Shown piece after piece: positions 4,556-62,117 of a stretch of 64,000 nucleotides of DNA (position 1 is the stretch's first letter; every line of letters begins with the position of its first letter). The DNA is from Bacillota bacterium (lineage in GTDB: Bacteria > Bacillota > SHA-98 > Ch115), in the NCBI GenBank assembly GCA_013178415.1, contig JABLXA010000004.1:62001-126000 (forward strand). Reading direction: 5' to 3'. The notes below the pieces were generated by a model. It was not told the origin of the DNA. It made no database searches and saw nothing but the letters and a program-made list of their open reading frames with translations. A program made the translations under genes and the position numbers.

Positions 4556-4990
4556 ATGCTCTATGTAATCGTCTTTATGAGTGGTGCGGTTTTGATGTCT
4601 TTGGAAATGATCGGGAGCAGGCTTCTAGCCCCTACTTTCGGCACATCCATTTATGTATGGGGTGCCCTGATCACCGTCGTCATGACAGCCCTTACGCTTG
4701 GCTATTATCTGGGGGGAAAAGCTGCCGACCGGCGACCAGACTCTCGAGCCATGGTACTGATCCTAGGCGTTGCCGGGTTATTAGTAGGATTCCTCCCATT
4801 CTGGTACATCCCAGTTAGCTACTCCCTTGCGATGCTTGGACCGCGCAGCGGCTCGCTTGTGGCTGCGTTCGCCTTCTTCTTTTCTCCATTGCGGCGGACC
4901 AATAGAGTGCTGCCATGCTGTCTGGAGAAAGCACATAATCACTTTGGTCGGCGTCCTATTTGTTGGGAAGGATTGATCAGTGGATCTTAA
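4556..4990 (+). pseudogene. Truncated spermidine-synthase-like membrane protein
   Basis: The first 110 residues match the membrane part of fused MFS/spermidine synthase-like proteins: MLYVIVFMSGAVLMSLEM, GSRLLAPTFGTSIYVWGAL, and TLGYYLGGKAADRRP. Three to four transmembrane helices can be seen. After FAFFFSP the frame becomes Arg/Cys-rich and unlike the family, then stops. The rest of the membrane domain and the whole SAM-binding methyltransferase-fold domain are missing. The start at 4556 has GAGAGGGG seven bases upstream. This is a 3' truncation, probably by deletion or rearrangement into the following degenerate DNA. Confidence 0.7.
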
Positions 4991-6325: not shown

Positions 6326-6877
6326 TGACAAGCTCTTGGCCAGATCTCTAAGGTGGGTGGCGAGTTATTGGTCATCCCAAACCGCTGGTGACGAGTTTTC
6401 GGTCACCCTAGACCGATGGTGGCGAGTCTCTGGGCAGGTTGCGCGCGGAAGTGACTGAGAATTCGTCAGCTTAGACCGAGGGTGACGAGACTGTAGGCAG
6501 GTCCCGCACGGAAGTGGCTAAAAATCCGTCAGCTTCCCCGCCAAGGTGGCGACATTCCCGTCAGGTTGGGATGATTTTGGAAAAGTCTGGGTCTATCTCA
6601 TCTTGAGCTAGCTAGAATTTAGGCAGGTTTTTCTCAAAGGTGGCCAAGATTTCGTCGGCCTCTGGTCCGTGCCGGCAGATTTCTCGCCACCTTGCCCTCA
6701 AATTGGAAGATTATAGGTTATGATTATCCATAATAAGGGATTTTGTAGCATATATTGGCCTGGAGTGGCGAGATTTTGGCCAGTTTGGACGCGGAAGTGG
6801 CTGGAATTTCGGCAGCATCTGCTCTCAAGTGCGAAAATCCTACCAGGCTCTACTCTCCGATGGCCAGAACCTAGGAG
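6326..6877. repeat. Array A: 18 helically phased TGRC-N9-GYCA dyads
   Basis: A 17-bp dyad (four bases, nine-base spacer, four bases) recurs with left halves at 6326, 6358, 6389, 6420, 6452, 6483, 6515, 6547, 6578, 6609, 6641, 6673, 6704, 6734, 6766, 6798, 6830 and 6861. Steps are 31 or 32 bp with one of 30, averaging 31.5 bp. Clear examples are TGAC-GAGTTTTCG-GTCA at 6389 and TGGC-GAGATTTTG-GCCA at 6766. The units at 6704 and 6734 are AT-rich and atypical, and the same two units are atypical in arrays B and C. The unit at 6830 has lost one spacer base. The region has stops in all frames, and a non-integral codon period rules out protein repeats. Confidence 0.85.
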
Positions 6878-11804: not shown

Positions 11805-11919
11805 GTTCTCACCCCTGAAAACCATCATCGGGAGCCGCAGACGCAGCAGCTGGAATGTCGCCCCGCCACTGGGCATTGGAAGCTGCAGCACAGCAGCTGG
11901 GATGTGGCCCTATCGCTGG

Positions 11920-12060
11920 ATGGACACCCGTGCCGCCATGGCGGCACCATCGGGGCCGCAAAATAACGCCCGCTATTTACTGGATAGACCCCCATGCTGC
12001 TGTCGCAGCGCCGTCAGAAGGATGGAAATCCCCCGAAGCGGACCCCACTATTTTCTGGGT
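11920..12060. repeat. Two copies of a dispersed palindromic repeat, one entering hisA
   Basis: Two adjacent copies of an approximately 65-85 bp repeat lie here. Its core is GTGCCGCCATGGCGGCAC (11930-11947), a perfect palindrome in the first copy and a worn one (ATGCTGCTGTCGCAGCGCC) in the second. Flanks read TAGACCCCCATG on one side and GGATGGAAATCCCCC then CTATTTTC on the other. Further copies lie at 27.36-27.80, 29.74, 44.10 and 62.07 kb. The second copy supplies the last 20 or so codons of the HisH-HisA gene. Confidence 0.8.
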
Positions 12061-13623
12061 AGCCGCAAGAACATCCTGGAGGGTCAGATCCTTCGTATAG
12101 AGTGCCCGCCCTATGATCATACCAGTGATCCTCCCGGGGAGCGCTTCTGATTCCCTTGCGGCCAATGCTATTTGTTTTACATGCGCAAGGTTTGCTATAC
12201 CCCCAGATACTATCGTGTCGACGCCCATTCGCGCGACAGCCATGGCATGATCGAGATTTGGTCCCTGCATTGCCCCATCTCGCCGTATATCCGTCACTAT
12301 CGTCTGCCGTATACCCAGAAGCTTTAGAGCCCTGACAACGTCCTCGATGGTCCGGCCTGTGTCACGCTGCCATCCGTCCACCGCCACTTGGCCATCTCTG
12401 ACATCTATTGCGGCGATGATCTTGCCGTCGAACCGGTCGACCAGCTGGCTTATCAATTCTGGCGAATTGAGAGCGGCGGTGCCGACGATGGCCCATGAAA
12501 CGCCTGCTTCAAATGCCTTCGCCACACTCTCAAAAGTCCTCAACCCGCCGCCTAATTCTATCTTGACGCCCGGCACAGCGCTGGCCATTTCTTTTATCAG
12601 CGGAAGGTTGACCGGCTCCCCGGCCGCTGCGCCGTCTAGATCTACTATATGAATTCTTGACGCCCCTTGAGAGGCCCAGAATGACGCTATTGCAACAGGA
12701 TCTTCCGAGAATACCGTCTCTTTGGAGAAATCCCCCTGAAACAGGCGCACACATTTCCTCCGCCTGATATCAATGGCAGGGATGACTTCAAGGTATCCAT
12801 CTTCAGGAGCGCCTTTATGGATTTTCTTGAAATCGCTCCCGGCGCAGTGTACCGAAACTGAGGGAGGCGATTTAACTGAGACAGGCGCTTTGCACAATCC
12901 GATTGAGGCAGGGGCCTTGCACAATCCGATGAAATTGGACAAAAGAGATAGCCCCACGCTGCCACTTTTCTCTGGGTGGAATTGGACACCGAATACAGAC
13001 CCCTTGCAGACCGCCGAAGGGAAATTCACAGCTGGAAGCGCCACACTGGTGGAGGAGAGATCCTGTGAGCAGCGTGTTTCCCCAGAGATTTCAAATCCAT
13101 ATGTAGTCATCCCAACTTCAACATCGGCTTCATCCGGCACAGCATAGTATGAGTGAGCGAAATAGAAATAGGAATCGTCCGGGATTGTATCCAATAGCTT
13201 ACATTCTCTCCGGATCTTTACTTGATTCCAGCCCATATGGGGGACTTTGGGCGCCTTTACCGGCAAGATGTGAGTTATGGCATCATCGAATTCAAATCTC
13301 CTCACCGAACCCTTTATAACTCCGAGACCCTCAGTCCATTGAGACTCTTCGCTTCTTTCAAACAGCAGCTGCATTCCAAGGCATATCCCAAGGACAGGCT
13401 TGCCGCTCGCCAGAAATGATCTGACTGTTTCATTAAGTCCGCTATTATGCAGGAAGTCCATGGCTTCCCCGAACGCTCCGACGCCAGGGAGGATGAGCCC
13501 GTCCGCCGCGGCCACCTGTTCCGGATCACTGGTGATGGTAGCTTCAGCCCCAAGGCTTTGCAGCGCCTTCTTGACGCTGGTGACATTCCCTATCCCGTAA
13601 TCTAAAATGGCTATCATGATCAT
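11977..13623 (-). CDS. hisHA: HisH-HisA fusion: IGP synthase glutaminase joined to ProFAR isomerase
   Basis: A single 548-residue frame. Residues 1-231 are HisH, the class I glutaminase, with GICLGMQ (nucleophile Cys81) and FGVQFHPEKS (His216, Glu218). A roughly 16-residue insertion precedes the last motif. Residues about 232-277 are a linker with a duplicated nine-residue unit, GLCKAPASI then GLCKAPVSV. HisA starts at EVIPAIDI (catalytic Asp near 284) and carries TDIRRDGAMQGPN (second Asp) and DTIVSGGI. No start codon or ribosome site precedes HisA, so it must be made as the fusion. The final 20 residues come from the dispersed palindromic repeat. RBS AAGGA precedes ATG 13623; ATG 13617 is possible. 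Confidence 0.93.
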   Translation of the reverse strand: MIMIAILDYGIGNVTSVKKALQSLGAEATITSDPEQVAAADGLILPGVGAFGEAMDFLHNSGLNETVRSFLASGKPVLGICLGMQLLFERSEESQWTEGLGVIKGSVRRFEFDDAITHILPVKAPKVPHMGWNQVKIRRECKLLDTIPDDSYFYFAHSYYAVPDEADVEVGMTTYGFEISGETRCSQDLSSTSVALPAVNFPSAVCKGSVFGVQFHPEKSGSVGLSLLSNFIGLCKAPASIGLCKAPVSVKSPPSVSVHCAGSDFKKIHKGAPEDGYLEVIPAIDIRRRKCVRLFQGDFSKETVFSEDPVAIASFWASQGASRIHIVDLDGAAAGEPVNLPLIKEMASAVPGVKIELGGGLRTFESVAKAFEAGVSWAIVGTAALNSPELISQLVDRFDGKIIAAIDVRDGQVAVDGWQRDTGRTIEDVVRALKLLGIRQTIVTDIRRDGAMQGPNLDHAMAVARMGVDTIVSGGIANLAHVKQIALAARESEALPGRITGMIIGRALYTKDLTLQDVLAATQKIVGSASGDFHPSDGAATAAWGSIQ

Positions 13624-13739
13624 CTCACCATCCTTTTGCCGCGCGGAGGCGCCCCATGTAAGGGCCACGCGTGGAGATCCTCCACGTAGACGCCCCTCTT
13701 GTTTCATGCATGGGCAAGAACGTGGTATTGGGGTCAACC

Positions 13740-14378
13740 TCAAAGCACGCCTTTAGTTGACGGTATGGATGTTCTGCGGGTATCTAGAGATACGGCCTCC
13801 GCCAGCGCCCTTCCAAAACCCTTGAATATGGCCTCGATGATGTGATGCGTATTCTTTCCGTATATTAGATTGATATGCAGCGTAACCCTTGCATTCCGGA
13901 CGAAACCCATGAAAAATTCCTCGATGACCTCTGTATCCATGTCGCCCACCTTTTCTCTTTGCAGGGGAACGTTGTAGACAAGATGACTCCTTCCACTTAT
14001 ATCGATGGCCTCACTTACAAGGGCCTCGTCCATGGGAATCTGGACGCTGCTGAATCTCCTTATTCCAGCTCGATCTGAGAGAGCCTTATCAACGGCCTGT
14101 CCGAGACAGATGCCGACATCCTCGACGAGATGATGGAAGTCAACCTCCACATCTCCTTCCGCTTTAATAGACAGATCAAACAGGCCATGGGCGCCCATCA
14201 AAGTCAGCATATGGTTCAAAAAACCGCACTGGGTATCAATTGAGACCACGCCTGATCCATCCAGGTCGATCTCAACTCCCACCTTGGTCTCGGAAGTTTC
14301 ACGTCGTACTTTTGCCGAACGACAGATTTCCATGGCTTCCATTGGCATTCGGCGCAAGATGTCCTCCGGTTTGTTCAA
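13740..14378 (-). CDS. hisB: Imidazoleglycerol-phosphate dehydratase
   Basis: Catalyses step 6 of histidine synthesis (imidazole glycerol phosphate to imidazole acetol phosphate). The duplicated metal-binding motifs are present: GFLNHMLTLMGAHG with DFHHLVEDVG in the first half, and the second repeat KNTHHIIEAIFKGFG. The usual bacterial length is about 195 residues, and this frame has 212. The annotated TTG at 14378 gives a short N-terminal extension; an ATG at 14348 or 14342 may be the true start, since the conserved part begins at RSAKVRRETSET. The protein is monofunctional, with no histidinol-phosphatase domain, and no histidinol-phosphatase gene was seen in this operon. Confidence 0.95.
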   Translation of the reverse strand: MNKPEDILRRMPMEAMEICRSAKVRRETSETKVGVEIDLDGSGVVSIDTQCGFLNHMLTLMGAHGLFDLSIKAEGDVEVDFHHLVEDVGICLGQAVDKALSDRAGIRRFSSVQIPMDEALVSEAIDISGRSHLVYNVPLQREKVGDMDTEVIEEFFMGFVRNARVTLHINLIYGKNTHHIIEAIFKGFGRALAEAVSLDTRRTSIPSTKGVL

Positions 14379-15606: not shown

Positions 15607-17037
15607 CTAACTCGCCTCATTTCCTCTGCTGCCCGCCATAGATTCATCAGGGTGTGAATCTTGCGTCATAGACTCATCGGGGCGTGAACCCTGCATCATA
15701 GACTCATCTGAGCGTGGATCCTGCTTTGTATCTTTCGCTGAATTGTCCTGGCATTGAATCGCGCCTATGGAATCGAGCCGTATTCTCATTGAATTCGCAT
15801 GGGCAAACAGGCCCTCGGTTTCAGCAAGCTTTATGGCATAGGGGCTTGCCTTCGCTAGATTTCTGGGGCTATACTTCACCACATTTATTGGTTTCAAAAA
15901 GTCCAGGCACCCCAGTGTCCCCCGGTACCTGGCGCAGCCCAACGTCGGCAGCACATGATTCGGACCGGCGACGTAATCTCCAATAGGTTCGGGACTATAA
16001 TGTCCAAGGAATATCGTCCCCGCGTTCCTGATCTTCTCTAGAAGTGCCATGGGGTCGGCTACCAAAAGCTCCAGATGCTCCGGGGCGTATTCATTTGAAA
16101 TCTCAATAGCCTCACCCATCGACGAGACCTCAACTGCCCCGCCATTTTGCGTGAGAGCCTTGATGATGACTTCACGCCTTGGCGCATTCCGCGTCTGCTT
16201 TTCGACTTCCGCGTCCACGAGATCCGAAAGGCCGGCTGCAGTAGTGATAAGAACAGCTGAAGCGAGTTCGTCATGCTCCGCCTGGGAGAGCATGTCCGCC
16301 GCCACAAAAGCTGGATCGGCGGTATCGTCGGCCAGTATGAGAATCTCGCTCGGCCCGGCCAGCATATCGATTCCGACGTCTCCATATACGAGCTTTTTGG
16401 CAGAGGTTACAAACGCGTTGCCTGGACCTACGATCTTGTCGACCCTCGGCACGATGTCAGTCCCATATGCCATCGCCGCGATAGCCTGAGCCCCGCCCAC
16501 CTTGAAAATCTTATCTACACCGCAAATATCGGCGGCCACCAACACGAAAGGATTGATTTCCCCATTTTTGCCGGGCGGGGTGCACATTATTATTTCCTCG
16601 ACCCCGGCGACTCGAGCCGGTATAGCCGTCATCATAACAGTGGAAGGGTAGGCGGCTTTGCCGCCAGGTGTATAGATGCCTACCCGCTTCAGCGGCGCCA
16701 TTCTCTGTCCAAGGAATCCATCGCCATCAAGTTCCATTGTCCAGGAGGCGATGGGCTGGCGTTCATGGAAAGCCTTGATGTTTTCGAAAGCGAACATCGC
16801 CGCATCCATGAATTCCCTGTCGACAACGGCGCGGGCACGCATGATCTCATCTCTTGATACCTGGAGCCCTTCCATATCCAGTGAGATGCCATCAATCTCA
16901 TGGGAAAGCTCAATCAGAGCCCGGTCCTTATAGGTTCTGACCCGATCTATTATCTGCCGGGCGACAGTTTCCTGCAGATCAAAGCGATTCTGTCTTCGTG
17001 ACAGGAGTTCGCTGGCGGAAAGCCTGGGGATCATCAT
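15607..17037 (-). CDS. hisD: Histidinol dehydrogenase with minisatellite tail
   Basis: Zinc and NAD-dependent enzyme for the last two steps of histidine synthesis. It contains VGIYTPGGKAAYPS, KVGGAQAIAAMAYGT, DKIVGPGNAFV, AGPSEILI, LSQAEHDELASA (a zinc-ligand region) and NEYAPEHLEL. The canonical protein would end near residue 430. Here a further 45 residues form a hydrophilic tail with three 10-residue units (QDPRSDESMM, QGSRPDESMT, QDSHPDESMA). The start overlaps the hisG stop by four bases (ATGA). Confidence 0.95.
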   Translation of the reverse strand: MMIPRLSASELLSRRQNRFDLQETVARQIIDRVRTYKDRALIELSHEIDGISLDMEGLQVSRDEIMRARAVVDREFMDAAMFAFENIKAFHERQPIASWTMELDGDGFLGQRMAPLKRVGIYTPGGKAAYPSTVMMTAIPARVAGVEEIIMCTPPGKNGEINPFVLVAADICGVDKIFKVGGAQAIAAMAYGTDIVPRVDKIVGPGNAFVTSAKKLVYGDVGIDMLAGPSEILILADDTADPAFVAADMLSQAEHDELASAVLITTAAGLSDLVDAEVEKQTRNAPRREVIIKALTQNGGAVEVSSMGEAIEISNEYAPEHLELLVADPMALLEKIRNAGTIFLGHYSPEPIGDYVAGPNHVLPTLGCARYRGTLGCLDFLKPINVVKYSPRNLAKASPYAIKLAETEGLFAHANSMRIRLDSIGAIQCQDNSAKDTKQDPRSDESMMQGSRPDESMTQDSHPDESMAGSRGNEAS

Positions 17038-18844: not shown

Positions 18845-18887
18845 TGCACTCCAACCTCTCCCACGAAATCCGTCATCGGTCTATTAC

Positions 18888-19040
18888 CGCTTTAATCGCG
18901 AAATCTATCATTGGTTTGTCATCGCGCTAATCACGAAATCTTTCTCCGGTTTGTTATCGCGTTAATCATGAGATTTGTTGTTGATTTGCCATCGCCTTAA
19001 TCTTGAAATCTATCATTGGTTTGTTACCGCGTTAATAAGG
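18888..19040. repeat. 35-bp tandem array with CGCG-TTAAT-CRCG dyads upstream of hisZ
   Basis: Five units have dyad starts at 18888, 18923, 18958, 18993 and 19028, each exactly 35 bp apart. The 13-bp core reads CGCT-TTAAT-CGCG, CGCG-CTAAT-CACG, CGCG-TTAAT-CATG, CGCC-TTAAT-CTTG and CGCG-TTAAT-AAGG, followed in each complete unit by ATCTATCATTGGTTTG or a variant. A partial unit extends to about 18863. The array sits between the yerC-like gene and hisZ, where a his promoter or operator is expected. Confidence 0.85.
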
Positions 19041-19093
19041 TAAAGTGTTAAATTAAAAGATCAAGAAGAGTCTACCACCTGATATACACCCTG

Positions 19094-22607: not shown

Positions 22608-22800
22608 GCGGATATGAGGCCGCTCAGAGTGAAAGGTCATGGAATATCAGGCCGCTCAGAATAAAAGAAAAAGATCATGGAACGTCATGCTGCTCAGAGC
22701 GAAAAATCGCAGAATATCAAACCATTTAGGGCGAAAGGTCGCGGAATATCGGGTCGCTCAGAACGAAATTAGAGAGAAAGATCGCGGAATATCAAGCCAC
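22608..22800. repeat. Array D: six GCGG-N9-CCGC-type dyads
   Basis: Dyads start at 22608 (eight-base spacer), 22639, 22677, 22709, 22741 and 22784. Typical cores are GCGG-AATATCGGG-TCGC and ATGG-AATATCAGG-CCGC. Steps are 31, 38, 32, 32 and 43 bp, the two long ones carrying 6 and 11 extra bases. The flank GAAAGATC or a variant precedes each unit. The last unit overlaps the final codons of the DUF1015 gene. Confidence 0.75.
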
Positions 22801-24217
22801 TCAATGGTTTAGGATAAAAGTATGTAGACTTTTGTGGCATTCTCTGGCCTGCCTTCACTACACTGCGAATATCATCGAGCCGGGTAGGGCTGAGGAAAAA
22901 GGCCATCTGACACCTGCCGTTCATTACCCTAGCTTGCGCTTCGCCGGGGTCTCGCGTATATGATAGATTTAGATCTGTTTCGCCCAATTCTCGCATCATG
23001 ATGTGATTTATCAAGATTTCATGAAGCAGGGTGACATCCAGGTTCCCCCGCGGAGATGATGCTTCTTTGCCTAATAGCTTCTCGACTTGGGTCCTGGTAG
23101 CAGGGTCGTCCTTCATGATGAGACTGAAGTACCCCGCCTTATCGATGAGAACAAGAAATGAGTGTTCCTCTCCAGGCAATGATTCTGGCATAAGGTCCCC
23201 CATTTCTTCTATCGTGAAGAATCTTTCGGCGGCCTGGAGAAATCGAGATTTATCAAGGGCTTTGAAGTTCTCTAGCATGCGGTGGGTAGGGAAGACCGTA
23301 AGGTCTTGGGTATCCATATTAACCAGCCACATCATGACATAATCGGCTGGTATATTATTTCCAGCAACATAATTGGGCGCCATGCCCTCACTGGCCACCT
23401 TGGCTGATCTTATTTCATCCCGGTAGACCATTGCTGTTTCATAACGATGATGGCCATCTGCTATGTAGATCTGCTTGTCTAGAAAATATCGCTCCAATGA
23501 TCTCACAAGGTCTTTATCGCAAAATGACCATACTCTATGGGAAATGCCATTGTCATCGGTGAGTTCCATAGCCGGTCTATTTGAAGAAATGATCTCTGAA
23601 ACAATACTGTCAGCCCCTCCAGAGGGGTCTGTATACATACCGAAAATCGGGCTGAGATTTGCCTTGCAGGACCGCATAAGGGCCAGTCTATCCTGCTTGG
23701 GGCCTGGCATAGTATCCTCATGAGGCAGGATGATCCCCTTCTCGTATTCCTCTATCTTGACAGCTGCAATTATACCGCGCTGGATGAGGGAAGACTTTGG
23801 CGCACTTTTCACACTTGAAGGCCCTGACCTTCTCCCCGAATGTTCATCATCGGAAGCGGAGCTGTCAGAAAACTGAGCTCTGCCCGATGTTTGTTTCTTG
23901 CCATATGTAGGGAAGGCCTCAAGGGAATATTCTTCTTCATAAATGTATAAAGAAGGTTCTGAATCCGCCACGAGAATCCCTTCGGTCAGCCACCGACGGA
24001 ACGCCTCGCCCGCGCGTATGTATTTATTTTCGTGCGCCCCATCCCCTGGCCTATCCTTCCCTAGGATCAGCCTTATAACGTTCTGGGGGTGCCTCTCATA
24101 TAAGATGTTTTGCATTTCAGGGCTGATGACATCATAGGGCGGAGCTATGACCTTGGACAAATCCGCGATGCGCTCTTGGTTATAATGAATGCCCTCAAAC
24201 GGTATGATTTCTGCCAT
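22769..24217 (-). CDS. DUF1015 family protein
   Basis: A 482-residue protein of the widespread DUF1015 family, often found with amino-acid or central-metabolism genes but with no firmly assigned reaction. Conserved parts are AEIIPFEGIHYN, VIAPPYDVISPEMQ, RPGDGAHENKYIRAGEAFRRWL, GIILPHEDTMPGPKQDRL, and YIADGHHRYETAMVYRDE. A low-complexity Ser/Asp-rich insertion lies near residues 108-138. The gene's last codons run into array D. It is followed upstream by an unannotated gap and has no operon partner. Confidence 0.85.
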   Translation of the reverse strand: MAEIIPFEGIHYNQERIADLSKVIAPPYDVISPEMQNILYERHPQNVIRLILGKDRPGDGAHENKYIRAGEAFRRWLTEGILVADSEPSLYIYEEEYSLEAFPTYGKKQTSGRAQFSDSSASDDEHSGRRSGPSSVKSAPKSSLIQRGIIAAVKIEEYEKGIILPHEDTMPGPKQDRLALMRSCKANLSPIFGMYTDPSGGADSIVSEIISSNRPAMELTDDNGISHRVWSFCDKDLVRSLERYFLDKQIYIADGHHRYETAMVYRDEIRSAKVASEGMAPNYVAGNNIPADYVMMWLVNMDTQDLTVFPTHRMLENFKALDKSRFLQAAERFFTIEEMGDLMPESLPGEEHSFLVLIDKAGYFSLIMKDDPATRTQVEKLLGKEASSPRGNLDVTLLHEILINHIMMRELGETDLNLSYTRDPGEAQARVMNGRCQMAFFLSPTRLDDIRSVVKAGQRMPQKSTYFYPKPLSGLIFRDLSL

Positions 24218-26504: not shown

Positions 26505-26621
26505 GGCTGTGGATATGAAGCATCTGTGGACTTATGGATAACCCCTTCGGGGTTACTCAAAGGGTCCACAGATGCTTGGACAACGCTTCGCGTTGACTAC
26601 ATATCCACAATATCCACAGCC
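26505..26621. other. Multi-branched palindromic element, possible ncRNA or cruciform
   Basis: An outer 12-bp stem pairs GGCTGTGGATAT (26505-26516) with ATATCCACAGCC (26610-26621). Alternatively 26508-26517 pairs with 26600-26609. Inside, AAGCATCTGTGGAC (26518-26531) pairs perfectly with GTCCACAGATGCTT (26564-26577) around a hairpin AACCCC-TTC-GGGGTT (26540-26554). A second arm is AACGC-TTC-GCGTT (26582-26594). All stems are exact. ATATCCACA occurs twice on the plus strand (26601-26609 and 26610-26618) and once on the minus strand, each one base from a DnaA box. No neighbour gene explains it. Confidence 0.7.
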
Positions 26622-26700
26622 CCGACGACGCCGATCTGATTTATTGAAAAACAGAGAAAAGGCGAGATCGAGAGAGTTAGTCTTAAAACATTAAGATGAG

Positions 26701-27316
26701 TGGCATAATTTTCGGCACCTGAGGGTAGAGGCCGCCGAAATTCCAGCCACCTCTGCATCCAAGTCGGCTAAAATCTCGCCACCTCCAGCTAAGATATACC
26801 ATAAAGTTCCTTCTTATGGATAATCATAACTTATAATCTTCCAATTCGAGGGCAGGGTGGCTAGAAATTCGCCACTCAGGTCCAGGGGCTGGCGAAATCT
26901 TGGCCACCCTTGAGCAAAACCTGCCTAAATCCTAGCCAGCTCAAGACGAACTTGATCCAGACTTTGCCAAAATCATCCCGACCTGACGAGAATATCACCA
27001 TCCCGATAAGGAAGCTGACAGATTTTTAGCCACTTCTGCGGGGGACCTGCCTGCAGTCTCGTCACCTTCGGTCTAGGCTGACGGATTTTTAGTCACTCCC
27101 GCGCGCAACCTGCCTAAAAGCTTGCCACCCCCGGTTTAAGCTGACGAATTCTCAGTCACTCCCGCGCGCAACCTGCCTAAAAGCTTGCCACCCCCGGTTT
27201 AAGCTGACGAATCTTCAGCTAACTGCGCGCGGGACCTGGCTAGAGACTCATCATCGGCGATTTGATGTGACCGGAAAATCGCCACATGTTTCGAGGAACT
27301 GGCCGAAATATCGCCG
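26701..27316. repeat. Array B: 20 helically phased TGRC-N9-GYCA dyads, inverted copy of array A
   Basis: Left halves lie at 26701, 26733, 26765, 26797, 26827, 26858, 26890, 26922, 26953, 26984, 27016, 27048, 27079, 27111, 27142, 27174, 27205, 27237, 27268 and 27300, an average of 31.5 bp. The reverse complement aligns with array A in register, including the AT-rich unit pair (26797 and 26827, with the same 30-bp step) and the conserved AATTGGAAGATTATA block. Two nearly identical 63-bp blocks (from 27111 and 27174) show recent duplication of a unit pair. No reading frame spans it. Confidence 0.85.
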
Positions 27317-27354
27317 GCTGACCCAGGTCCCGTTCTCTACCCTGAAAATCGATG

Positions 27355-27800
27355 GTGGCCATTTTCATCCGTCCGATGGTGCCGCCGCAGCGGCATGGGG
27401 GTCTACTTTGAAAATAGCTGAGCGCCATTTTCATTTTTCGTTGGTGCCGCCGTGGCGGCATGGGGGTCTACCCTTAAAATGAGCTACCCTTAAACCCACT
27501 TTCCGCATGTATAGTTTACCAAATGGCGTCGTAGCGCGGTTTATGGCCGATCAGAAAATTGTGAAAGGGTTAAGTCGAAATTTTATGCAAACTTTCGAAC
27601 CTAGGTAGCATCGGTAATTGTAGACTGGAATATTCTACATGCAAAATATGGGCTTAAAATGAGCTGCCGCTGTTTTTACGCTCCTGATGGTGCCGCCATG
27701 GCAGCATGAGGGTCTGCCACTGAAAATAGCGGGGGCCGCTTCGGGGGATTTTCATCCTTCTGCTGGTGGTGCCGAGGTAGCATGGGGGTCTACCGAGAAA
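27355..27800. repeat. Cluster of four palindromic dispersed repeats
   Basis: Copies lie around 27355-27415, 27420-27480, 27660-27725 and 27735-27800. Each has TTTTCATCC or similar, then GGTGCCGCC(n)GCGGCATG and GGGGGTCTACC. They are in the opposite orientation to the copies at 11.9 and 29.7 kb. The stretch between 27480 and 27660 shows nothing recognisable. Confidence 0.7.
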
Positions 27801-29544: not shown

Positions 29545-29734
29545 CTGGATATCAACTCCTTCTGCATGTCTATATGGGATCCGACTCTATTTTTATACTC
29601 GGATCCCATTTTCCCTCCTTTTCATTTTAAGATTTCATCTTTAAGGAATTCTTGCGGATAGATCAACTGGTGGTAAAAAGCCTGCTATAGATTTCCATGA
29701 TTGCGTCGAGATCACCGGACCTCTTGGCTGTTCT

Positions 29735-29825
29735 CAAAGTAGACCCCCATGCCGCTCCGGCGGCACCATCAGGGGGATGAAAATCTCCCGAGGAGGGCGC
29801 CGCTATTTTCGGGGCAGCTAGCTAT
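29735..29825. repeat. Palindromic dispersed repeat copy
   Basis: GTAGACCCCCATGCCGCTCC then GGCGGCACCATC and GGATGAAAATCTCCCG, matching the copy at 11.98-12.06 kb. It ends at the stop of the lipoprotein gene. Confidence 0.7.
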
Positions 29826-41029: not shown

Positions 41030-43258
41030 TTACTTATATGCGTTTACCGCTTCTTTCAACTCGGAGATGATCTCTGCCGCTCTCTGTGCAGCTTCACCCG
41101 AACCATTTGCCTTCGCCAGTTGACTGATGAGGGCGCTTCCCATTATGACCGCATCTGCAAATCGGGCTACTTCCCGAGCTTGGTCAGGATTGGAGATCCC
41201 GAACCCTACCGCGAGTGGAAGGTCTGTATGTTTCCTCACTCGCTCCACCAGCGGGATCAATCCATCAGATAATTGAGCCCGTGCGCCGGTCACCCCTGTT
41301 ACGCTTATGCAGTAAACAAAACCGCTTCCGCCGGAAAGAGCCAGGGCCAGCCGCATTTCCGGCGTCGTAGGCGCCACAAGAGGTATCCAGGCAAGTCCGT
41401 ATATTTCGCACATATCCAAGAGTTCACCCGCCTCTTCCCTCGGAAGATCGGGCACCAAGATCCCATTATATCCTGAATCCGCCGCCTCCTTGGCGAATTT
41501 GGCAATTCCCCGGTGGAATACGGGATTATAGTAGGTGAACGCTATAAGGGGAACATCGGCTTTTTGCCGTATTGCGCGTCCTATCTCCCATGCTTGTTCA
41601 ATGTGAAACCCGCCTGCCAGGGCTCTCTGGCTCGCAGCTTGGATAACAGGGCCATCTGCCAGGGGGTCGGAGAATGGGAAGCCAATTTCGATGGCATCTG
41701 CACCAGCATTTGCAACGGCCACCGCAACCGCGATGGTGGTGGAAGGATCAGGATCTCCTGCTGTGATGAATGGGATCACTCCCTTGCCACCGGTTTCCCT
41801 GAGTTTACGCAGGTGCCTTTCTAGCCTCGCCCCAGGAAGATCAGATGAATGTGAGGCTGTCGCAATCCGCGATTCTTCCGGCTTTTCGAGTGAAGCAGGG
41901 GGACTGGTTATGCGAGAGATCGAGGTATATGGGGCGGACGTCCATGCCGTCGGGACGGCTCCGCCGGAGAGTTGGAAAGCCCCTGAAGCCCCCGAAGCCC
42001 CCACAGCTCCCGAAGCCCCCTGGGAGGACCCGAGTCGGTCCATTTCTTTTCTCTCCAGGATCGCAGCCACTGTCTCGACATCCTTATCTCCGCGCCCTGA
42101 CAGGTTGACGATTATGATGGCGTTCTTATCGATATACCTTGCGAGTCCGGGAAGGTAGGCCAGTGCATGCGCGCTCTCCAGAGCCGGTATGATTCCCTCC
42201 GTCTCTGTAAGCAAGCGAAATGCCATGAGAGCCTCTTCATCGGTGACAGCTACATATTGGGCGCGCCCTGTCTCTTTGAGATATGCATGTTCCGGCCCTA
42301 CCCCGGGATAGTCCAGGCCTGCTGAAATCGAATGGGCAATCTGTACCTGGCCGTCATCATCTTGCAGCAGAAATGAAAGGGAACCATGGAGAATTCCCTT
42401 TGTCCCGGCGGTGAGGCTCGCAGCATGTCTCTTTGTGTCTATTCCTTCACCCGCTGCTTCCACTCCGATCATCTGCACGCCCTCGTCATGCAAGAATGGG
42501 TAGAACAAGCCTATCGCATTGGACCCTCCGCCAACGCAAGCCACGAGGTAGTCAGGCAGACATCCTCTCTCTTTCAAGATCTGTTCCCGCGCCTCTATTC
42601 CGATCACCGATTGAAAATCCCTGACCATACGTGGATAGGGGTGCGGCCCTACAACTGAACCTATTACATAATGGGTGGTTTCCACATTGGTAACCCAATC
42701 GCGGATCGCTTCGTTGGTGGCATCCTTGAGGGTCTTCGAACCTGAAGAGACCGGCGTCACCTCAGCCCCCAGGAGGCGCATCCTGAAGACATTGAGAGAT
42801 TGACGCTTCATATCTTCTTCTCCCATATATACCCTGCATTTGAGCCCAAAGGCCGCGGCAACCGTTGCCACTGCGACTCCGTGTTGTCCTGCGCCAGTTT
42901 CTGCGATTATGCGCTTCTTTCCCATCCTCACTGCAAGCAACACCTGACCTAGGGCATTGTTGATCTTATGAGCACCGGTATGATTCAGATCTTCTCTCTT
43001 GAGATACACGTTTTTCAGCCCTAGACGTTCCCCTAGCCGGCGAGCATGATAGAGGGGAGTCGGGCGGCCGCTATAATCCTGCTCATACACACGGAGTTGC
43101 TGCTGGAAATCAGGATCATTGATTGCCTTTTCATAGGCGGCCTCTAATTCCGCCAGTGCCGCCATCAATGTCTCCGGCACAAATCTTCCCCCGTAGGGTC
43201 CAAAACGTCCCGAACTATCGGGAACAGCAGTCTTCATCTTGGGTATTGCCATTTTCAT
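41030..43258 (-). CDS. trpBA: TrpB-TrpA fusion: tryptophan synthase beta and alpha chains in one protein
   Basis: A 742-residue fusion with the beta subunit first. TrpB occupies about 1-410: [34 protein letters not shown] with the PLP lysine near residue 98, [15 protein letters not shown] near the end. The linker (about 412-485) is low-complexity with Gly/Ala/Ser repeats from a 9-bp minisatellite. TrpA follows: [34 protein letters not shown] with catalytic Glu and Asp, and [13 protein letters not shown]. Fungal fusions have the opposite order, alpha then beta. The start at 43258 follows GGAG and overlaps trpF by 44 bp. Confidence 0.95.
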
Positions 43259-44045
43259 TCTCTCCTTCAAGATCTTTAAACGCTTTTTTCGCCGTCGCAA
43301 CAAAATCCCGTATCAAGCCGGGATCTTTGCGCCCGTCTATTTCCACCCCCGAGGATACATCCACGCCCCAAGGCTTCACCTTTGCTATAGCATCCGCTAC
43401 ATTAGAAGGTTTAAGGCCGCCTGCCAGGATGATCTTTTTGTCATGAAACCTTCTTACGATTGTAGCGGCTATGTCGTGATCGGCTGAAATGCCAAGCCCT
43501 CCGCTTCCAGCCGGGCTCCATGTATCAAGGAGAATCAGAATTCCCTCGTTATCCGCACCAGATCCTGACGCACCAGATCCTGAACTAGATCCTGAGCCAG
43601 ATCCGCGGCCCCAGGAAGCTCGCGTCCCTGGGGAGCGCAGAAAACATGGCGTCGCAGCGAATTCTTCGATGGCCCGCGCCAAGGCTCCGTTAGATACGAT
43701 CTGACTATAGGGCTCAGACCCCGAGGGAATCCCAAATGACCTGATCACTCTGAAACCCGAGGCCCGGAGCCTGCGGCATAGGTCAAGATCCCCATAATCA
43801 TGAAGTTGAATGGTATCTAGATGAGACTCTTCAAGGGCTTCCAATATCTCCTCCTCCGGTTGCCCGCGGAAAACCCCCACCTTCCATATTCCCGTGGGTA
43901 TATCAGACGAGAGTTCTTTCACTTTGGAAGGCGTCACATAGCGGCGGCTATTCGGAACCATGACAAATCCTATTGCATTCACTCCGGCTTCAAGGGCAGC
44001 CTCCAGAGCGACAACGTCTCTGATCCCACAGATCTTGATCCACAT
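43215..44045 (-). CDS. trpF: Phosphoribosylanthranilate isomerase with Gly/Ser insertion
   Basis: The (beta-alpha)8 isomerase of tryptophan synthesis step 3. It has [20 protein letters not shown] (catalytic Cys), [25 protein letters not shown], and [29 protein letters not shown] with the catalytic Asp. The insertion at about 141-168 is a Ser/Gly-rich stretch ([18 protein letters not shown]) in the place of a loop, encoded by a 12-15 bp repeat. The 3' end overlaps the TrpBA gene by 44 bp. The canonical enzyme is about 205 residues and this one is 276. Confidence 0.92.
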
Positions 44046-44084
44046 GAATATTCACCATCCATATGCCCGCTCATCTACCCCCAA

Positions 44085-44165
44085 AATAGTAGCGCCCTCT
44101 TTGTGGGAGTTTATTCCATCTGATGGCGCTGCGACAGCAGCATGGGGGGTTACATGAAAAATCGT
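44085..44165. repeat. Palindromic dispersed repeat copy between trpF and trpC
   Basis: CCATCTGATGGCGCTGCGAC then AGCAGCATGGGGGGTTACATG, a worn copy of the 65-85 bp palindromic repeat. It ends just before the trpC stop. Confidence 0.6.
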
Positions 44166-48676: not shown

Positions 48677-48708
48677 AAAAAACCTTTCATCCCAACTGGG
48701 ACGAAAGG
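48677..48708 (-). terminator. First T-box terminator
   Basis: CCTTTCGTCCC pairs with GGGATGAAAGG across AGTT on the minus strand, followed by six T. Confidence 0.85.
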
Positions 48709-48988
48709 TAAACTTCCGTGGTGCCACCCAACTAGAGGATACAATCCTCCACTCGTCATAAGGTACAGGCAGTGAGGCTATATTTCTGCCGATACCCTCT
48801 CCTGTTAACGGCGGAGAAATCCGTTGAATCCTACCGGCGCTATCGCCCTCAGATCCACCCTCAGGGGCCCATTCACCATCCGCGTCCTGACCGGACTCAC
48901 ACCAGGCGCCGGCTCTCTTGCAGGCGGCAGGGTGGCTACTTCTCCCCATCACCGGTTTATCTAGCCATATGCCGTATGTTTGAAATCT

Positions 48989-61825: not shown

Positions 61826-62064
61826 GGTGAAAGATTACCTCCCGTTTCGGCGCTATTAGTCTTTTTCTACAGATAGCCAAATATCTCCTTTATGTAATGT
61901 GTGGTTGGCATGGTTCGTGCTAGTTAGAATGGCAACTGAAGGGTAGTCTTCCACGAGACCTGAGGAATCTGGATGCGATGATTTCAAGGACGCTGCAAGG
62001 CCTGATTTCTAGATCACGAAAATTGAGCATCTCAGATCGGTTTCATGCTGGGCAGGGAGTTCGG

Positions 62065-62105
62065 GGTAGTCCCCCATGCCGCCATGGCAGCATGGAAGTC
62101 TATCC
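62065..62105. repeat. Partial palindromic dispersed repeat next to array C
   Basis: GGTAGTCCCCCATGCCGCC then ATGGCAGCATGGAAGTCTA, a fragment of the 65-85 bp palindromic repeat, 13 bp before the first dyad of array C. Confidence 0.6.
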
Positions 62106-62117
62106 AAAAGTATGGGC

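Follow-up and report, generated by a model that had tools for sequence, protein, structure and literature searches.

A dispersed palindromic repeat across the 3' end of hisA as the likely source of the HisA tail and stop codon in a Bacillota genome

The HisA protein encoded in the window, the 64,000-nucleotide stretch of Bacillota DNA analysed here, ends in a tail whose last 20 or so residues were attributed in a sequence-only reading to a dispersed palindromic repeat that had landed in the gene end. The locus raises the question of where this tail came from and whether the gene is in use with it. The best explanation, with a probability of about 0.85, was that a dispersed palindromic repeat lies across the hisA 3' end and is translated as tail and stop.

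A copy of the repeat makes up the C-terminal ~27 codons of HisA and the TAA stop (window 12063..11977, minus strand). The minus-strand frame ends in ...LTLQDVLAATQKIVGSASGDFHPSDGAATAAWGSIQ followed by the TAA at 11979-11977 and includes the tail peptide stretch SASGDFHPSDGAATAAWGSIQ. In an nhmmer search of a 174 kb pool the unit matched the repeat profile over 83 nt (model positions 1-82) with an E of 8.7e-21, which rules out chance as the source of the match, and the best other copies in a genome-wide blast were 81-84% identical (E 1e-18 to 1e-14). Similarity began at 12062/12063, at the unit's own boundary (CTACC) and not mid-unit, and the originally given span of 11977-12060 was correct within one codon. 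The stop lies at the start of a second unit, where the consensus CTG AAA ATA reads CAG TAA ATA and an A-to-T change created the stop codon. A unit whose GGGGG run is complete at five Gs is free of stops in the hisA frame and reads LKIAAPASGDFHPSDGAAAAAWGST. This frame was open in 29 of 48 longer copies and was the most often open of all frames, so in-gene copies in that frame need no special selection.

The host gene joins HisH and HisA in one frame (Table 1). The linker, IGLCKAPASIGLCKAPVS..., is present in duplicate, and neither an ATG nor a GTG start was located immediately before the HisA domain in this frame. HisH and HisA were in separate frames or separate genes in the relatives checked.

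Table 1. Positions of the HisA host gene and of repeat units in the window
Feature	Position	Strand	Evidence
Host gene, in-frame HisH-HisA fusion	11977..13743	-	ORF; PF00117 + PF00977; TIGR01855 + TIGR00007
Repeat unit encoding the HisA C-terminal tail (~residues 245-271 counted from LEVIPAID)	11980..12062	-	nhmmer E 8.7e-21; genome-wide blast
HisA stop codon TAA, within the first bases of the next unit	11977..11979	-	codon view; unit consensus
Second, degenerate head-to-tail unit, hisA-hisF spacer	11917..11987	-	nhmmer E 1.5e-9
Two head-to-tail units (27.4 kb copy of the sequence-only reading), the second at 27403-27474	27337..27474	+	profile search
Two head-to-tail units, 27657-27718 and 27720-27799	27657..27799	+	profile search
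Single unit, nearest to consensus	29734..29816	-	nhmmer E 8.1e-22
Weak, diverged unit in the fused TrpB-TrpA linker, HisA-tail frame	41932..41989	-	nhmmer E 3e-5; frame
Single unit (44.1 kb copy of the sequence-only reading)	44075..44154	+	nhmmer E 1.5e-15
Partial unit, GC-rich palindrome only	62060..62108	.	nhmmer E 5.5e-6

The repeat unit is a palindrome of ~65-80 nt that has GTAG at its ends and contains two hairpins. Aligning 61 units in the hisA direction gave the consensus CTACCctGAAAATAGCgGcGccCgCtTCgGggaTTTTCATcCtTCTGATGGTGCcGCCgcaGCGGCATGGGgGtCTAC, in which a variable hairpin 1 is flanked by GAAAAT and ATTTTC and hairpin 2, rich in GC, is formed by TGCCGCC..GGCGGCA. GTAG was located on the reverse strand at both unit ends. 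At one end 29 of 40 units carried the corresponding CTAC and at the other end 29 of 56 did so, the remainder being mostly one-base variants. The source genome held at least 69 units in 43 clusters at E<1e-6, the unit count being a lower bound as only the stretches around blast hits were read. Twenty-four clusters were single units and 19 were head-to-tail arrays with a spacing of 57-92 nt, mostly 63-66, and none of these 19 multi-unit clusters was of mixed orientation. Most clusters overlapped no recognised gene. The genome-wide collection of copies that had been proposed yielded in-gene cases in hisA, nadB and gatD and a weak one in trpB-trpA, and the two further copies named in the sequence-only reading, at 27.4 kb (27361-27413, plus strand, HFHPSDGAAAAAWGS) and 44.1 kb (44075-44154, plus strand, IPSDGAATAAWG), were real.

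Several other reading frames touching the repeat were not counted. Source-genome ORFs with repeats on the 5' side (G6PD-like, ABC transporter, nucleotidyltransferase and S41-peptidase-like) were set aside as translation may start downstream, and an ORF of 250 aa on C11 had no Pfam match. ORFs over repeats in the relatives G002, G003, G006 and G008 were mostly without a Pfam match, while in the frames of a class II tRNA synthetase (G002) and a PhdYeFM protein (G028) the repeat covered the first part only, likely upstream of the real start.

Other repeat families were also present in the window. Sequence ~80% like one end of the IS110-family element described below adjoins a second degenerate array with units of 32/63 nt (window 26574-27285 and 6388-6837), of which an inverted copy of 436 nt, 81% alike, lies at a distance of 20 kb, and more degenerate tandem arrays with units of 30-35 nt were located at 18853-19043, 22624-22803 and 15634-15723. 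The source genome seems rich in intergenic repeat families.

An alignment of HisA with relatives had been suggested for finding the native end. HisA sequences from 33 relatives, with identities from 62 down to 37%, were followed to the C-terminus and most ended within ~10 residues of the repeat start point, with the tail phrase present in none. The frame of one, L035, continued into hisF, and the native C-terminus can be placed only to within several residues because a few relatives (L014, L015) carry unrelated extensions of up to ~20 residues. Relatives with the same tail and no repeat elsewhere, the finding that would have made the gene the source of the repeat, were sought among these 33 and none was found. 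Because no relative's HisA has the tail and most end near the repeat start, the extension is specific to the source genome and the repeat did not come from hisA. The converse history, in which the repeat is a spread fragment of hisA, is refuted on present data and its probability is negligible, as no point in its favour was found, similarity stops at the repeat boundary, and the repeat was nevertheless detected in 13 of the 60 relatives searched, at family, order, class and phylum distance. The direction from repeat into gene was thereby supported, given also the 43 or more clusters in the source genome.

The TIGR00007 model was complete (1-230 of 231) by residue 557 of the 588-residue fusion. 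An AlphaFold2 prediction, made from an alignment of the window HisA and four relatives, gave a confident barrel (mean pLDDT 87, pTM 0.85) with the last helix at 238-250 and a pLDDT below 50 at residues 253-271. The tail is thus predicted to be unstructured and to lie outside the TIM barrel, so that the enzyme probably tolerates it. The window gene was the sole HisA gene found in its genome, which argues that the extended HisA would be in use, translated to the repeat-borne stop and working. A false junction in the assembly or a dead hisA pseudogene is very improbable. The assembly consists of 57 contigs and several contig ends are at IS copies inserted in repeats, but the hisA copy is inside a 318 kb contig, and a pseudogene is at odds with the only HisA of the genome, a barrel predicted to be intact and the open flanking his frames.

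The best relatives' HisA proteins were 62-64% identical and the collection included no close relative with an empty hisA site, so that insertion into the hisA end is deduced and the event itself was not seen. A before and after pair of this kind, absent for hisA, was present for nadB (C4:256189-257727). The best relative, G003, was 91-93% identical in DNA on both flanks and contained no unit, its NadB ending in WNIEDTIIKIGQ and a stop. The source-genome nadB contained an insert of ~84 nt and ends in WNIEDTAIKVDLHSAAAAPSE; the repeat, read here from its other strand, includes the stop. A single unit took the place of the final codons and brought a new stop with it, and this empty and filled pair directly shows the insertion of a sister copy. 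No clear target-site duplication, which together with terminal inverted repeats would mark a MITE, was observed in the pair, but the edges of the insert are ambiguous by several bases. The 91-93% identity extended over the nadB-nadC region (L182 and L183; G000 C4 vs G003 C3) in genomes of different families whose HisA proteins were just ~47% identical, which suggests that this region was recently transferred.

The claim that the repeat had landed in the hisA end therefore held for the repeat origin of the tail, while landing as such was seen directly at nadB and would apply to hisA by analogy. The units would be old, GTAG-ended, hairpin-forming elements that were spread by some enzyme, mostly outside recognised genes, and a unit that landed in its open frame, whether in a loop or at the end of a gene, could leave a product that survives. 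Translation of hisA would run into a unit that is open in the orientation and frame present there and occupies the position expected for the final native codons, with one substitution in the next unit giving the stop. It is also conceivable that a unit was first located in the hisA-hisF spacer and that a deletion or frameshift at the native stop later let translation enter it. Most units are in spacers, a second unit directly follows the hisA unit and, by reading, the HisA frame is open across the spacer up to hisF apart from the TAA, so that the spacer could be easily entered. Such a run-on is nonetheless less likely, as similarity at hisA starts at the unit boundary rather than mid-unit and the unit at nadB went straight into the last codons. 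The nadB case makes insertion the better guess for the arrival of the hisA unit.

The gatD gene is split. Contig C22 ends with its N-terminal half and contig C32 begins with its C-terminal half, and these were the only GatD pieces found in the source genome. That the two contigs adjoin is inferred from IS ends and gene halves that match. Between the halves are two units, SAPKIAAPTLGDFHP and SDGAAAAAWGST...MAARAST, both in the frame used at HisA. They occupy a site where G001 and G002 have a short, uninterrupted loop (e.g. VVIESQLPLGGAPTMVGFENHSG), and an IS110-family element sits inside the first unit. A two-step history is proposed in which the repeat would have entered in frame and the IS110 element would later have split the gene at the repeat. 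In G008 an in-frame TAG occurs in gatD (L157) at precisely the loop where the source genome has the repeat. At trpB-trpA one open frame of 760 codons (window 41033-43312, minus strand) includes a linker of ~65 residues, and trpB and trpA were separate genes in six relatives. The linker resembles PSDGAAAAAWGST, and this weak match (nhmmer E 3e-5) suggests that the fusion linker probably contains a repeat unit.

The IS110-family element was represented by a full copy of about 1.77 kb on C7, from 131980 to ~133753, with PF01548 and PF02371. Four of its six left junctions and four of its six right junctions fell at one and the same position in a repeat copy, the target being TTTCATCC/CT/CTGATGG, and the repeat is a preferred target of this element. 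The full copy itself (L146, C7:131700-136500) is inside a CRISPR array with repeat GTTTTTAGTCTACCTATGAGGGATGGAAAC and is among the few copies outside the palindromic repeat. At L006 (C23, unit at ~4804-4908) ~26 extra bases are similar to the element's two ends joined together (CTATCTGATTTCATTACAGGAC) and may be a scar left by excision or deletion.

Units were presumably moved by some enzyme, and the RAYT/Y1 transposase was rejected as a candidate. No Y1/RAYT (REP) transposase gene was detected in the source genome or in the relatives G001-G008 tested, and the repeat was near none of the Y1 loci in four repeat-bearing relatives (G018, G043, G048 and G059).

The structure of the repeat bears on whether it is primarily a transcribed 3' hairpin that stabilises mRNA or acts as a terminator, as has been suggested for REPs, with its coding role at hisA incidental. 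The arms of the GC-rich hairpin (TGCCGCC/GGCGGCA) formed 4.38 of 6 pairs within copies vs 3.60 when shuffled, a value reached in none of 2000 shuffles, and arms one base out of register gave no signal in the same test, as expected. Stem variants in relatives, TGTCGCC/GGCGAC and TGCCGAC/GTCGGC, were compensated changes. This covariation, the mostly intergenic sites and the conservation of the repeat across a phylum favour a hairpin role, but the folding of a single unit was just modestly better than shuffled (z about -1), which is unconvincing alone, and a T-run terminator was not shown. No Rfam 15 family was above the gathering threshold for the repeat in the window, where the sole match was a T-box leader elsewhere (RF00230, 104.5 bits, 48694-48961, minus strand). 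Such a role is possible but doubtful as the primary account, and it is compatible with a repeat translated as the HisA tail rather than exclusive of it.

The sister copies at hisA, nadB and gatD show several outcomes of one process. We offer tentatively that a phylum-wide repeat with an open frame may be a general donor of coding sequence in the source genome, providing ends and stops (HisA, NadB), a loop (GatD) and a bridge (TrpB-TrpA), as well as an IS110 landing site that can later break the gene entered. The nadB pair and the two-step history of gatD bear on the conversion of non-coding repeats into protein and on its cost, in a way that is testable by ordinary enzyme assays. The repeat family and the set of cases appear to be new on a non-exhaustive search of the repeat literature, while the phenomenon itself is known.

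Among known systems, GTAG REPs are GTAG-tagged short palindromes that are mostly intergenic and in some species are in frame inside ORFs (Di Nocera et al. 2013, PMC3733652). Just over 10% of their intragenic copies are at ORF ends, their termini often give flanking ORFs a stop codon, their stems have compensated changes and head-tail dimers are absent or rare; the words 'Firmicutes' and 'Clostridia' are absent from the text (PMC3733652). The source-genome repeat shares the GTAG tag at the unit end and the short stem (6-9 bp, small loop, compensated changes). In contrast, its unit is ~65-80 nt with two hairpins, no RAYT gene is in the genome or near the repeat, and its arrays are all head to tail where REP dimers are mostly head-head or tail-tail. 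It is therefore REP-like and was not filed as a REP, since the tag and stem fit while the RAYT link and dimer orientation do not. IS elements targeting REPs include ISPpu9, ISPpu10, ISPa11 and others (PMC1525189) and IS110 elements use RNA-guided targeting (PMC11208160, PMC11187229). The IS110-family element described here likewise inserts at one repeat position, although element and target repeat are both new. Palindromic repeats within genes are known from Rickettsia (RPE), with Wolbachia counterparts (PMC2229807 and references there). The likeness to RPE drawn in the sequence-only reading was fair for the outcome, as both are palindromic with an open frame, are read in frame in conserved protein genes (gatD, hisA and nadB here) and are also located between genes. 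The sequences are unrelated, however, and the source-genome repeat has units of 65-80 bp vs 105-146 bp with terminal inverted repeats in RPE, GTAG rather than CGTC ends and few genic copies. The GTAG REPs, with copies at ORF ends that give stop codons to flanking ORFs, are closer. To the protein-coding palindromes best known from Rickettsia and some REP families, the repeat of the source genome adds a family shared across a phylum.
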